A stretch of DNA of 27,023 nt. Source: a virus. The translations under genes were made by a program, and so were the position numbers. The DNA lies in the IMG/VR virus record IMGVR_UViG_3300040807_003453, positions 1-27,023 of that record; one strand, given 5' to 3'. Under the pieces are notes generated by a model, which was not told the origin of the DNA, did no database searches, and worked only from the letters and a program-made list of their open reading frames with translations. This document shows, in pieces, positions 10,868 to 27,023 of this stretch; the stretch's first letter is position 1, and every line of letters starts with the position of its first letter.

Positions 10868-11944
10868 TTATTTGGTTAGTTGTTCCTTATAGACTGTGTT
10901 ATATCCCAACTGATTTTTTCCAAAATCGGTCAATGTTTTCAATGCACCTGGTGTGATGAATGACTTCAGTGTCCTAACTGCGGCATCACCCTCTGCACCT
11001 GTTCTCCATTCGTACTTGCCCACTTTCTTTTCGATAGCGGCAACTGACGCTGGGTCTTTGATCATCCGGTCCAAAGCGGCAACAAGTTTCGCTCTGTTTG
11101 GATTGCCCTTGTTCACCCAAAATGCTTTCTGTAATGCATCTCTCCAACTCTTGACCAGTTTGTATGCATCGTAGAAGTCACCACTTGGTGCAACACCGTA
11201 CATAGATTCAAACAGTTCTTCAAACGTTGGCTCTGTGAAGTTGGGATCCTTGTCGTGGTTTCCTGTCTTGACATTCAACAGTCCATGATGGAACCACGTG
11301 TATGCATCACCCTTCTTGATAACTGGCATCACATGTTTCTTGTATGCGGCAGGGTTTTCCCTGGTTGCGTTCAAGTCACCTCTAATGAATGCTAGTCTTC
11401 TCTCCGAACCTTTCATGCCTTTCACCCAAACAATCTTGTCTTCGAATGTTTTGATTGGGTCACCATCTGGTCCTGCGAGCAACATGACAATTGCCATAAT
11501 CTCTGGAGTCATTCCAGATCCTGATGGAAACTGTATAGGTCCGTTCTTGGTATCTGCTTTGTCTCTTGCACCAACGATGATGTTCAAGTTCATCTGTCCA
11601 ATCGATTCCCAATCAAAATAATTGTAATCGACCGGTTCCATTAGATATGATATACCGTTACCTCCATGAGATACCAATATTGTTTTATCATCAAATCTTA
11701 ATGTGTTTTGAAATTCGTTTGGACCCAATTGGTCTCTGGCACCTGGTTTGTAGATGAGATTGATCTTCTCACCCAAGTGTTTCTCCCATTCGGCCACAAC
11801 TATCTGTGCCCACACAGAAGTTCCACCAGATGGTTTTTGTGGCACGATTAAATTGTAATCTGCTTTTGCAATTTTTCCAAACATCACTCCCACCACAAGT
11901 ATGCCAACTAGTATGGCACTTTTTATCATTCTTTTTTTAAGCAT
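10868..11944 (-). CDS. tctC: Tripartite tricarboxylate transporter substrate-binding protein, TctC-like
   Basis: A 358-residue secreted protein. The N-terminus is a classical signal peptide: basic start (MLKKRMIK), hydrophobic core (residues 9-23) and an A-K-A cleavage site at 26-28, so it should be periplasmic. The mature start YNLIVPQKPSGGTSVWAQIV corresponds to the TctC/Bug-family strand and glycine loop that holds the carboxylate ligand, followed by INLIYKPGARDQLG, the usual second ligand-loop region. Later blocks (KIVWVKGMKGSERRLAFIRG; VAALDRMIKDPASVAAIEKK) fit the two-lobe binding fold. It is immediately downstream of the TctA-like gene with an 8-base overlap, which strongly supports a transporter pair. 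The ligand cannot be read from sequence; tricarboxylates and other small organic acids are typical of the family. Confidence 0.78.
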   Translation of the reverse strand: MLKKRMIKSAILVGILVVGVMFGKIAKADYNLIVPQKPSGGTSVWAQIVVAEWEKHLGEKINLIYKPGARDQLGPNEFQNTLRFDDKTILVSHGGNGISYLMEPVDYNYFDWESIGQMNLNIIVGARDKADTKNGPIQFPSGSGMTPEIMAIVMLLAGPDGDPIKTFEDKIVWVKGMKGSERRLAFIRGDLNATRENPAAYKKHVMPVIKKGDAYTWFHHGLLNVKTGNHDKDPNFTEPTFEELFESMYGVAPSGDFYDAYKLVKSWRDALQKAFWVNKGNPNRAKLVAALDRMIKDPASVAAIEKKVGKYEWRTGAEGDAAVRTLKSFITPGALKTLTDFGKNQLGYNTVYKEQLTK

Positions 11945-13373
11945 AATCTATCCTGTTTTTTCTTGTTATTCCCGCCCATGTTATCATTATAACACAGAGT
12001 ATTATAAAAATAAAGACCGGTCTTTGAAAAATTTCATCTACCGAATGTAATGATATCAATTGATAGGACAAGTTATAAATTCTATCACTTAAAAGATAAC
12101 CAATCAATAACGCCGGTCTGCTTATTTTCATATATTTACATCCTATTCCCAAGGCAGAAAAAATTACCAAAGTGGCAAGATCTTCCCAACCGCCGGTGTA
12201 CTGCATGGTTGCCCAGACAATGATTGCTATTATGAAAGGAAAATAATAGATGTATGGTAATTTTGTTATATATCCTGCGAAATAAGCCAATCCATAACAG
12301 ATAAAAGCAGTGATGATCGTTCCTGCCAGGAAGCCAAATGTCATACTATCAAATAGTTGAGTATCATAGAACGTGTCTGGTGATCCCAGATCTATTCCTA
12401 TGTACAGAAATAATCCCATCAGGATGGCGGCAAAAGGTGCTCCCGGTATGCCAAACAACACAGTGGGAATAAAGGACGAGGCCTTCTGTGCATTGTTGGC
12501 TCCCTCGGCTCCTATCACTCCTCTCACATTTCCATTTCCAAATTTTTCGTTTGGATTTGAAGCAACCGTGGCACCATAACTCAACCAATCTGCCATTGCT
12601 CCGCCCAGTCCGGGCAGTAGTCCTATGAACGAACCTATGGCTCCTCCGCGTATGCTATCTTTCCAGCAATGTAAAGTGTCTTTTATCCCTTGTAAAATTC
12701 CTGACCAACTGCCTTTCAATGCCGCGGCATCTACTGTCTGTTTTCTTTTACGCCAGCCTTCCCATAATTCTGGTATGGCAAAAAGTCCTGCCACGAACGG
12801 CAGTATCTGTACTCCATCCTCAAGGTATCTCCAGCCCATTGTGAAACGTGGCACATTGTTGGCATCCACTCCCGCCAGGCCTATCACGACACCTAATATT
12901 ATGGCTAGTATGCTTCTGATGTAATTCTTGGTCGATAAAAAACCCACCGTGACAAAAGCCAAAACCACCAACGCCCATAATTCCGGTATTCCCATGTACA
13001 TCACAATGTTGGTATAGTAAGGCAAAAATAAAAATGTGAGAGAACCAAATATCAATCCGTTTAGGGTGCTGGATGTGATTGCGGCACTTAGGGCTCGTGA
13101 TGCTTCGCCGTTTCTTGCCATGGGGAATCCATCCACCATGGTTGCGGCCGCCGAATTGGCACCGGGTATGCCCAACAGCACACCGCTGAAAGAATCACCT
13201 GTTGTCGAGGATGCCACAACTGCCACACAGAATATCACGCCCAGGTAGGGATCGGATACAAAATAAGGCATCACACCAAACAGTGCTATCAACCCTGTGG
13301 TGGCTCCCGCGGCCGGTATTATGCCAATTATCAATCCAAAAAATATTCCGGCAAATAAAAATATCAGTTCCAT
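11937..13373 (-). CDS. tctA: Tripartite tricarboxylate transporter large permease, TctA-like
   Basis: A 478-residue, very hydrophobic protein with roughly ten or more membrane spans. It shows the two inverted-repeat signature loops of TctA: GLIIGIIPAAGATTG (about residues 13-27) and IGLLPGLGGAMADWLSYGAT (about 250-270), each followed by a GIPGA-type motif (LLGIPGANSAAATMVDGFPM in the first half; VLFGIPGAPFAAILMG in the second). TctA forms the Na+-coupled translocation pore, working with the small membrane protein TctB and the binding protein TctC. It begins close to the first signature loop, so it is slightly shorter at the N-terminus than the usual ~500 residues. No TctB-like gene is present beside it. 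It lies 2 bases after the GIY-YIG gene. Confidence 0.83.
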   Translation of the reverse strand: MELIFLFAGIFFGLIIGIIPAAGATTGLIALFGVMPYFVSDPYLGVIFCVAVVASSTTGDSFSGVLLGIPGANSAAATMVDGFPMARNGEASRALSAAITSSTLNGLIFGSLTFLFLPYYTNIVMYMGIPELWALVVLAFVTVGFLSTKNYIRSILAIILGVVIGLAGVDANNVPRFTMGWRYLEDGVQILPFVAGLFAIPELWEGWRKRKQTVDAAALKGSWSGILQGIKDTLHCWKDSIRGGAIGSFIGLLPGLGGAMADWLSYGATVASNPNEKFGNGNVRGVIGAEGANNAQKASSFIPTVLFGIPGAPFAAILMGLFLYIGIDLGSPDTFYDTQLFDSMTFGFLAGTIITAFICYGLAYFAGYITKLPYIYYFPFIIAIIVWATMQYTGGWEDLATLVIFSALGIGCKYMKISRPALLIGYLLSDRIYNLSYQLISLHSVDEIFQRPVFIFIILCVIMITWAGITRKNRIDYA

Positions 13374-13375
13374 TT

Positions 13376-13801
13376 CTATTTTTTTCTTATCATGCTTCCG
13401 TGTACTCTCACTCTGATGTGTCCGTTATAATAATCATCAGACTCCAGCACCTTTCGAGCAAACTGTTCTCTGGCTTCCACGTAAGATAGTTCACCTTTGT
13501 TCTTGCAATAAAATAATATCTCCCTGGTGAATTTATCGTTTCCTATTTTTTGTATGTCTTCCAGCAATGCATCACTGGAACCGTAATAATCTCTCCAATC
13601 GGAATCTACCTTGAATCTTCTTTTATTTTTTCTGCCTTTTAACGGAGGTCTAGATCTTTTAAATTTTGCTAATTTTTTGCCAATATATTTCTTACCATTG
13701 GTTGTATTTGTTATCTCGTACACAAATCCAACACAATCGTTTGGTAATTCATCGACCGGTTTTCCTTCAAACATCCACTGCATGATGGTATTTAAACTCA
13801 A
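13376..13801 (-). CDS. GIY-YIG family endonuclease (Seg/homing-type)
   Basis: A 141-residue protein with the GIY-YIG signature in variant form: GFVYEI (25-30) and KKYIGKK (37-43), followed by a basic region (KRSRPPLKGRKNKRRFK), DWRDYYGSS (68-76) and a YVEAREQ helix (107-113) whose Glu109 fits the metal-binding acid. Such short proteins are common as putative homing endonucleases in T4-like phages. It is the first gene of the accessory operon. The start chosen is a TTG with GGTGAA upstream; an ATG 18 bases further in (13783) would remove only six residues. It may cut DNA at a specific site and drive spread of the linked cassette, which is inference. Confidence 0.75.
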   Translation of the reverse strand: MSLNTIMQWMFEGKPVDELPNDCVGFVYEITNTTNGKKYIGKKLAKFKRSRPPLKGRKNKRRFKVDSDWRDYYGSSDALLEDIQKIGNDKFTREILFYCKNKGELSYVEAREQFARKVLESDDYYNGHIRVRVHGSMIRKK

Positions 13802-13889
13802 TACTGTTCACCGAATTTTATTTGATTGTTATATAGTAGTGATAGGCAACAGTATCTATCCGACAGGCAAAATCAAAAAAATATTTAGG

Positions 13890-14286
13890 CAAACATAGCA
13901 TCGCAACCAGTGAGCAAGGAAATGCGGCTAACAAGCGACAGGTGAATCCTTTGATGCAAACGGCAAAAAATGATGGGGCTCTTAGAAAAAGTTAAACCCC
14001 AGGTTTACCAAAAACTATTATGCAAGGGTTTGGTAGGCTCGCGTTGTAATGAATGAGCAAATGGGTACAGCACAACCGCCCAACTACGGTAGCGATGTAT
14101 AGTGACTGCGAACTCACCACAGGGTTCAAGTCGGTTCGGCTAGAAATAGCCGAATTGTGACTGCTCATCTACCACAGGGGACGCATAAATGCGTCATTCC
14201 GCAAATGTAACTACTGCGTAAAGCGTAAATTAAAAAAAAGAAACGAGCGTAAGCGAAGTTTCAGATGGCTGTAAGCCATCTTTGTA
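13890..14286 (+). ncRNA. Candidate structured RNA (unassigned family) in a 485-base gene-free gap
   Basis: No credible gene lies in 13802-14286. Instead the plus strand shows a chain of paired elements: GCATC/GATGC (13898-13902/13953-13957) enclosing CAAGGA/TCCTTTG (13915-13920/13947-13953); TGGGG/CCCCA (13974-13978/13997-14001); an 11-pair helix with wobbles (14002-14012/14029-14039); GCGTTGT with ACAACCGC (14041-14047/14072-14079); GACT..GAAC with GTTC..AGTC (14104-14113/14124-14132); a 10-pair hairpin with a GAAA tetraloop (14133-14156); GACGCA-TAAA-TGCGTC (14180-14195); GAAAC/GTTTC (14240-14262); and AGATGGCT/AGCCATCT (14263-14281) ending 5 bases before the next ATG. G+C is 30 of 60 at 14101-14160. 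It may be a free RNA or a cis-acting leader of the following gene. I could not match it to tRNA, tmRNA, RNase P or intron cores. Confidence 0.6.
14102..14179 (+). repeat. Imperfect 23-base direct repeat inside the structured RNA
   Basis: GTGACTGC, six variable bases, then ACCACAGGG occurs at 14102-14124 and again at 14157-14179, exactly 55 bases apart. The two copies flank the GAAA-tetraloop hairpin. The repeat suggests duplicated RNA substructures or alternative pairing partners rather than coding constraint. Confidence 0.7.
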
Positions 14287-15078
14287 ATGAAGTTAAGTAA
14301 CAATATGCAACTATTGTTCGATCACACACTGGGAAAACAAGAACACACTGACCTAGTGCTGTGTCGTCCCATGGCAATCGTTGATGACACCGAAGAAGTT
14401 GAAGCACTGTGCGAGGGTTGGCTGGCATTGGATCACCCGATCAAAAAACAGGAAGTTTTTTATCAATCACGTAGCACACGCATAAACCTGGATGAATACA
14501 AACCTAGGTACAAAAAGCACGAATGGCAAGGACAACCCATAGAGATCAAAATAATCGATGCCAGCGAGATGGTGAAACTGTTGGGTCTGCCACACATCTA
14601 TAAACAATACATGACCAGAAAAAAATTTACGCAGGATTACGATCCTTTCCTCCACTATAACAAACGGGATCAATTCATGTTGTTCTACATCGGTACAGCG
14701 GACAACATCGTGGGATTCACCAAACAGAAAAGATATCGATATCAAGAGGACAACTACATTGCCCAATTGGGTGACGATCTGTTGGATCTCGCTGGGTTGG
14801 AATCCGTGATACACGCCAACACTGTGCCCATATCATTGATCACCCTGGACATGGAAATACTCTGGGCCAGTGAACACCATGTTTCTTATTTTTACATGGG
14901 ATCCGGGTACGAAGCCAGTTCCGTGTATAAATCGAACTATCGTGGATTCGAATGGTGGACGGGTACCGAATGGAGCAAGGACAAAAAACTATACAGGAGT
15001 CTATGCAAGAGAGATTCTAGGATCGAGGCTTTAAAGGATGTCGCCATGCTCCCGTCACTGATTCGAGATGACTCTTAG
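14287..15078 (+). CDS. Acyltransferase-like (GNAT/arginyltransferase-type) protein of unknown role
   Basis: A 263-residue soluble protein. The C-terminal half has ISLITLDMEILWASEHHVSY followed by FYMGSGYEASSVYKSNYRGF and EWWTGTEWS (residues 182-230). The Y-x-Y-x-G-x-G-Y-E...YK strand-turn resembles the end of GNAT-type N-acyltransferases and arginyl-tRNA-protein transferases, where the phrase 'Y-Y-L-G-Y...M-x-Y-K' is typical. The rest is not recognised. There is no Shine-Dalgarno sequence before the ATG; a stable hairpin (14263-14281) ends 5 bases upstream, so translation may be controlled by the structured RNA. A second ATG lies at 14305. Its 3' end overlaps the convergent minus-strand gene by 62 bases. 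Function is tentative. Confidence 0.5.
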   Translation: MKLSNNMQLLFDHTLGKQEHTDLVLCRPMAIVDDTEEVEALCEGWLALDHPIKKQEVFYQSRSTRINLDEYKPRYKKHEWQGQPIEIKIIDASEMVKLLGLPHIYKQYMTRKKFTQDYDPFLHYNKRDQFMLFYIGTADNIVGFTKQKRYRYQEDNYIAQLGDDLLDLAGLESVIHANTVPISLITLDMEILWASEHHVSYFYMGSGYEASSVYKSNYRGFEWWTGTEWSKDKKLYRSLCKRDSRIEALKDVAMLPSLIRDDS

Positions 15079-26601: not shown

Positions 26602-26640
26602 CAGTTAGTTCAAATGTGCTTTTACTCAAGTAGAAGACTT

Positions 26641-26694
26641 ATGCGGATGACAACCGCGTAGCCAGGAGAACTGGCATTGGACTCCTATAAGGAG
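26641..26694 (+). promoter_or_regulatory. Structured leader: mini-ORF and three hairpins, the last covering the ribosome-binding site
   Basis: Three short hairpins follow one another: TGCGG/CCGCG (26642-26646/26654-26658), GCCAG/CTGGC (26661-26665/26671-26675) and CTCCT/AGGAG (26682-26686/26690-26694). The last pairs the AGGAG Shine-Dalgarno of the downstream gene. A six-codon frame, ATG CGG ATG ACA ACC GCG TAG (26641-26661), runs through the first hairpin. The arrangement suggests translational control of the last gene. Confidence 0.45.
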
Positions 26695-26701
26695 AAAAAA
26701 A

Positions 26702-27023
26702 ATGGGAAGACCTATAAGAAAAGACAAGTTTGTAGCAAGTTTTGGTGGAGACACATCTGCTAAAATCGCCGTGACGGCCTACAGAACTTTTGGTGGAGCA
26801 AAAGTTGACTCCACAACAGCATACATCGTGAACCAAAGAGGATCTAAAAAATTCAAGATCCACATGGAAGACTCTTCAGAAGCAATCATGCTTTTGAAAG
26901 CAGTTGCTCCAGGTACATTGGCCAACGACAATGCTACAGGATACGGTGAATTCTGTGTTCAGATCACATTAGATGACTCAACAGTTGCTTACGTAGAAAA
27001 ATTCTACAACAACACTGTTCACT
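26702..27023 (+). CDS. Unknown phage protein, probably structural (partial, 3' end beyond window)
   Basis: The frame is open from ATG 26702 to the window end (107 codons). The product starts MGRPIRKDKFVASFGGDTSA and continues with KIAVTAYRTFGG, TTAYIVNQRGSKKFKIHMED and GYGEFCVQITLDDSTVAYVE, a beta-rich pattern. I associate MGRPI-starting proteins of this kind with late genes of marine T4-like phages but cannot assign a function. TAAGGAGA lies 7 bases before the ATG; the leader is structured and preceded by a late-type promoter. Decoration, fibre or neck roles are all possible. Confidence 0.7.
   Translation, partial: MGRPIRKDKFVASFGGDTSAKIAVTAYRTFGGAKVDSTTAYIVNQRGSKKFKIHMEDSSEAIMLLKAVAPGTLANDNATGYGEFCVQITLDDSTVAYVEKFYNNTVH

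Follow-up and report, generated by a model that had tools for sequence, protein, structure and literature searches.

Structured transcripts lying near replication and recombination genes are familiar from T4-type origins and from ColE1 RNA II. We know of no function for the large phage RNAs ROOL and GOLLD. ROOL is a large, pseudoknotted RNA of phages and prophages with no known protein partner (PMC12286853). The Polynucleobacter-1 motif (Rfam RF01718) was listed in 2010 for Burkholderiales and for fresh water and estuary, and was marked as probably cis-regulatory (PMC2864571). The window analysed here (27,023 nucleotides) comes from a T4-like phage with a capsid protein closest to its jumbo-phage counterparts. 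It encodes an RNA of about 440 bases which, like ROOL, is large, pseudoknotted and borne by phages, but which is shorter and has no Rfam match. GOLLD, to which the window RNA also shows no Rfam match, is often longer than 800 nt as against ~440 nt, and in this comparison the window carries no tRNA. The RNA resembles T4-type origin transcripts and ColE1 RNA II in being structured and in lying near such genes; it differs from them in that no skew signal accompanies its apparent jumbo-phage copies and in that its structure is conserved at the RNA level.

The RNA lies in a 485-base gap (13802-14286) between a SegE-like ORF (13376-13801, -) and the next ORF (14287-15078, +). The original prediction had placed a candidate structured RNA at 13890-14286 within this gap. 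The ORF list and the sequence bear out the gap itself, comparison of homologues yields nearly the same limits (conserved core 13887-14284), and strong covariation together with the absence of a conserved protein frame confirms that a real structured RNA is encoded here. Core identity is 76-99% in more than 50 loci (blastn, with loci fetched through the neighbouring protein), and a profile search matches the core in 228 of 243 loci, the same contig sometimes being repeated. Forty-six loci contain both the RNA and the neighbouring gene; conservation is higher for the RNA in every one, with median nucleotide identities of 86.7% and 70.6% respectively. Protein coding was rejected: no open reading frame passes through the RNA in any of 102 homologous sequences, and 85% of indels among RNA homologues are not multiples of three. 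Thermodynamic folding alone is only moderately above chance and does not choose a strand (z-scores of -2.9 on the + strand and -3.5 on the - strand). The strand follows instead from the alignment, since G-U cells far outnumber A-C cells (659 versus 81 over 85 pairs and 102 sequences), and the RNA is therefore read from the + strand.

Across these 102 homologues the proposed structure, with 85 named pairs in 17 helices including two pseudoknots, is 95.9% paired, and compensatory changes occur at 47 of the 85 pairs. Because the structure was derived in part from the same 102 sequences, the paired fraction does not by itself count as independent evidence; the weight is placed on the compensatory changes and on controls in which pairings were slid. 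Covariation was assessed with a self-written null after the R-scape idea, in which substitutions were re-dealt on the tree in 30 simulations, using an alignment with gappy columns trimmed. Fifteen column pairs covary above this phylogeny-aware null, and 14 of them are of the Watson-Crick/G-U type. Coordinates of the individual elements are collected in Table 1.

Table 1. Elements of the RNA and its surroundings in window coordinates, with supporting evidence from the homologue alignment.
Feature	Coordinates	Strand	Evidence
Candidate promoter: TTCACC, 17-base spacer, TATATA	13807-13835	+	possible, from sequence and alignment
Whole RNA	13843-14284	+	5' end inferred; conserved core 13887-14284; homologue conservation; G-U versus A-C for strand
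P1, 5' domain: GCATC/GATGC, AAGGA/TCCTT, inner hairpin	13898-13957	+	P1 and P1b 96-97% paired, compensatory changes; 13917/13950 and 13918/13949 covary
P2, hairpin TGGGG/CCCCA, inner CTT/AAG	13974-14001	+	98.4% paired; 13976/13999 covaries
P3, hairpin of 11 pairs	14002-14039	+	97.7% paired; 9 of 11 pairs compensated; three covarying pairs
PK2, pseudoknot of 8 pairs	14017-14103	+	14017-14024 (P3 loop) with 14096-14103
PK1, pseudoknot	14042-14082	+	stem 14062-14065/14079-14082; loop 14072-14078 with 14042-14047
P4, two-pair tetraloop hairpin	14083-14090	+	100% paired; both pairs compensated
R1, repeat GTGACTG..CTC plus X (14116-14122, ACCACAG)	14102-14127	+	X same as that of R2 in homologues; internal hairpin P5 (GAAC/GTTC) 83% paired
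P6, 10-pair GAAA-loop hairpin between R1 and R2	14133-14156	+	99.3% paired; 14138/14151 covaries
R2, repeat GTGACTG..TCT plus X (14171-14177, ACCACAG)	14157-14179	+	twin of R1
P7, hairpin GAAAC[GAGCGTAAGCGAA]GTTTC	14240-14262	+	94.4% paired
P8, last hairpin	14263-14281	+	94.2% paired, compensatory changes

Several of these elements had been picked out beforehand from the single sequence. The 10-pair GAAA-tetraloop hairpin corresponds to P6, the nested GCATC/CAAGGA domain to P1 (as GCATC/GATGC and AAGGA/TCCTT), and the hairpin directly before the next start codon to P8, which precedes an ATG; the G+C count of 30/60 at 14101-14160 was also reproduced. Both pseudoknots are supported. In PK1 an upstream GCGUUGU pairs with the loop of GGG[UACAGCACAACCG]CCC; its parts are 100% and 94.3% paired, 14062/14082 covaries, and compensated variants occur in two loci (L192 and L220). 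PK2 is 98.7% paired, as against 13-49% when slid, with six of its eight pairs compensated and covariation at 14019/14101. In distant relatives the PK2 strands change wholesale and complementarity is kept (UUUAAUCU/AGAUUAAA in L164, AUUCAAUC/GAUUGGAU in L108). P8 is probably the 3' end of the RNA, with a putative role as terminator; a scan for a T-run terminator found none. The candidate promoter scored nothing in a consensus scan and is weak by consensus; its TTCACC reads TTGACC in many homologues.

The most distinctive feature of the RNA is the short sequence X (5-9 nt), which is the same in R1 and R2 within one RNA and differs between phages (ACCACAG, AGTACA, GGATGAA, GAATAAT, AACAGAA and GTCGGAA, for example). 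The identity holds throughout the 102 marine sequences (in three, an alignment gap displaces it), in 128 of 133 members of a wider set (12.5% of shuffles), and in 86 of 90 RNAs from later, mostly freshwater scans (23% of shuffles), a small number of these 86 being doubtful matches. The only top covarying pair without any standard pairing, in both the marine and the jumbo-phage alignments, is the R1/R2 identity pair, occurring as A/A and G/G in the former and as U/U and C/C in the latter. The complement of X is not enriched within the RNA. Most simply, each loop would meet a partner of the same kind, though the two X loops might also touch one another through a non-standard contact. That partner might be a nucleic acid in trans, with X of a guide or sponge RNA base-pairing to a target that both loops need. 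A short, phage-variable sequence, the same in both loops and with no complement in cis, is what such an RNA would display. We nevertheless consider it unlikely, as the flanks hold only scattered complements of X, none of them recurrent at loci with long X, and as the RRATRAN-like pattern that X often keeps would equally suit recognition of a protein or of a shape.

The window RNA matches no Rfam family, and even up to an E-value of 10 only two sub-threshold chance matches appeared. Rfam and ARAGORN searches gave no match for the RNA to group I/II introns, tRNA, tmRNA, RNase P or HEARO/omega RNA, in agreement with the earlier failure to recognise tRNA, tmRNA, RNase P or intron motifs by eye. 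The presence of a SegE-like gene near many marine and freshwater loci would fit a ribozyme, or a mobile RNA of intron-like type, that the adjoining SegE GIY-YIG gene spreads. This reading is scarcely credible given the lack of any Rfam match up to E 10, the location of the RNA between genes, and the fact that the RNA stays in place where SegE flips orientation or is absent.

RF01718 itself is not matched in the window, either at its gathering score or up to E 10. Among freshwater relatives, by contrast, the 5' half is RF01718 in 14 of 20 scanned RNAs, and likewise in L440 and L379. A profile built on the freshwater 3' half picks up 27 of 30 marine sequences, with a best E of 6.9e-17, and this 3' half, visible in L440, is common to the window RNA and the RF01718-bearing RNAs; it comprises PK1, the R1-hairpin-R2 arrangement, P7 and P8. 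The RF01718 model has 141 positions and ends upstream of PK1, leaving the shared pseudoknots, repeats and 3' hairpins outside it. Since RF01718 forms the 5' half of freshwater RNAs that share the window 3' half, Polynucleobacter-1 belongs to a larger RNA as one of its 5' domains; the window RNA seems to have a different one. The description of the RNA as new thus stands for the window, where Rfam finds nothing, and needs qualifying for the freshwater relatives with RF01718 as their 5' half. One branch is partly known. The RNA as a whole, like its pair of matching loops, appears not to have been described: the open literature searched, which leaves out preprints and most subscription papers, yielded no account of the complete RNA.

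The core recurs in more than 200 phage loci, and the fold is common to hundreds of uncultured large bacterial viruses. A motif search collected 213 distinct RNAs, and searches with an exact 19-base core and with other patterns add many further viral contigs among the matches listed; the hits of one broad pattern scan were mostly due to chance and were sifted for stem complementarity. On marine contigs, some as long as 196 kb, the RNA is single-copy. Four matches fell in bacterial genome bins, on MAG contigs; we read these as phage contigs and not as host RNAs. The genomic place is steady, close to gp46 and the T4-type hub gene and in many cases to a SegE-like gene, but the genes directly beside the RNA vary among loci, as do their strands.

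This arrangement bears on the second function offered in the original prediction, that of a cis-regulatory leader which senses something and controls the gene at 14287-15078. In most marine loci a gene of the same family does follow on the same strand, ~20 bases downstream, and RF01718 was listed in 2010 as probably cis-regulatory (PMC2864571). A leader should always lie upstream of, and on the same strand as, the gene it regulates, whereas the next gene is convergent in 33 of 122 marine and 45 of 93 freshwater loci. Several unrelated genes can come next, the jumbo-phage copies have four to five different neighbours per genome, and a conserved TTAAGTA before the gene start may be that gene's own late promoter. 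A leader is thus distinctly unlikely, and of the two functions offered it is the large phage ncRNA that stands. Because the next gene is so often convergent, and because neighbours and strands vary, the RNA most likely acts in trans, as far as its genomic contexts indicate.

A blastn search for the window RNA found no homologues among cultured phages. The corresponding genomic position is occupied, in several cultured jumbo phages whose hub gene is related, by an unannotated gap of 0.7-0.9 kb. The 121Q gap sequence matches 41 cultured records, most of them at four to five places; copies within one genome all lie on one strand, and those inspected are intergenic, in clean gaps. RaK2 has three copies, none at the hub-gene place. 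The jumbo consensus includes a TATAAT box, preceded in many copies by a TGAAACG-like element that resembles the second promoter type described for phage CBB (PMC5259590). These RNAs contain a pseudoknot of PK1 design (CCGUUG with GAGAG[AAACAGAGCAACCCG]CUUUC, and compensated variants such as CCGUCA/UGACCCG) and two repeats around a G/C hairpin, with twin identity looser at one position in 121Q and Munch; 19 of the 25 best covarying pairs in their alignment are more than 90% Watson-Crick/G-U. In 121Q, BF, GAP32 and others, the PK1 design, the R1-hairpin-R2 layout and the genomic place agree with the aquatic RNAs. Profile searches between jumbo and aquatic RNAs found nothing significant in either direction, and common descent within one class is therefore inferred from motif, layout and synteny. 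With that proviso, the RNA is probably present in several copies per genome in giant phages of E. coli, Salmonella and plant pathogens. In PA5oct, MIJ3 and Phosso the corresponding gaps are 1-1.5 kb long, and the core motif was not found in them. The stretches in Phosso (L248 14760-15773) and PA5oct (L249 15837-17180) have no or doubtful genes and may hold further diverged or unrelated RNAs; at another site (L249 43066-43669) the PA5oct record also lists a putative lncRNA, based on RNA-seq.

Multiple jumbo copies with a middle-type promoter, spread over the genome on one strand, together with the location next to the recombination genes gp46/gp47, would suit a DNA element, namely a replication origin whose structured transcript primes synthesis. 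Such an origin is highly improbable: no GC-skew switch occurs at seven jumbo copies, the skew change in the window follows gene direction, and the G-U cells indicate that structure is selected as RNA.

The explanation that we favour, at about an even balance of probability, is a stand-alone RNA of large T4-like phages, compacted by pseudoknots, with the jumbo RNAs in the same class. The RNA would be transcribed on its own from the + strand and end near P8, and PK1 and PK2 would lock it into a compact shape. R1 and R2, flanking one hairpin, would present the same X and thereby hold the same kind of partner twice, be it a protein dimer, a pair of identical RNA molecules, or the RNA's own sister copies; the RNA, acting in trans, would therefore work as a scaffold or assembly during infection. 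More tentatively, it may represent a largely unrecognised and very widespread class, present once per genome in aquatic phages and several times in jumbo phages, with a pseudoknot core and two loops that change in step. If so, identity covariation with no complement in cis would be a new way to bind one partner twice or to self-assemble. The RNA is common in aquatic viral contigs and includes the orphan motif Polynucleobacter-1 among its 5' domains, and its twin loops offer a precise handle on its partner. Its apparent relatives among cultured phages of E. coli (121Q, PBECO4), Salmonella, Serratia, Erwinia and Xanthomonas would make a laboratory test of a large phage RNA possible.

The surroundings of the RNA have features of their own. 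A TctA transporter gene lies within 10868-13373 (-), adjoining the RNA region, and the ORF beside it, which has no Pfam match, looks on our reading like a TctC-type binding protein; the two are possibly metabolic cargo. Different genes occupy this spot in other loci, which gives it the look of a cargo site. In one phage contig (L095) the gene after the RNA reads as a glutamate synthase small subunit-like gene. In homologues a TTAAGTA is conserved directly 5' of the start codon of the gene after the RNA (region 14293-14311 in the window) and may be a late promoter. The window counterpart of that start codon is ATG 14305 and not 14287, and the annotated start may be six codons too early. Elsewhere in the window, the Rfam freshwater-2 RNA (RF02980), a cis-regulatory family, is matched at 26620-26704 (+, 73.4 bits), before an ORF at 26702.
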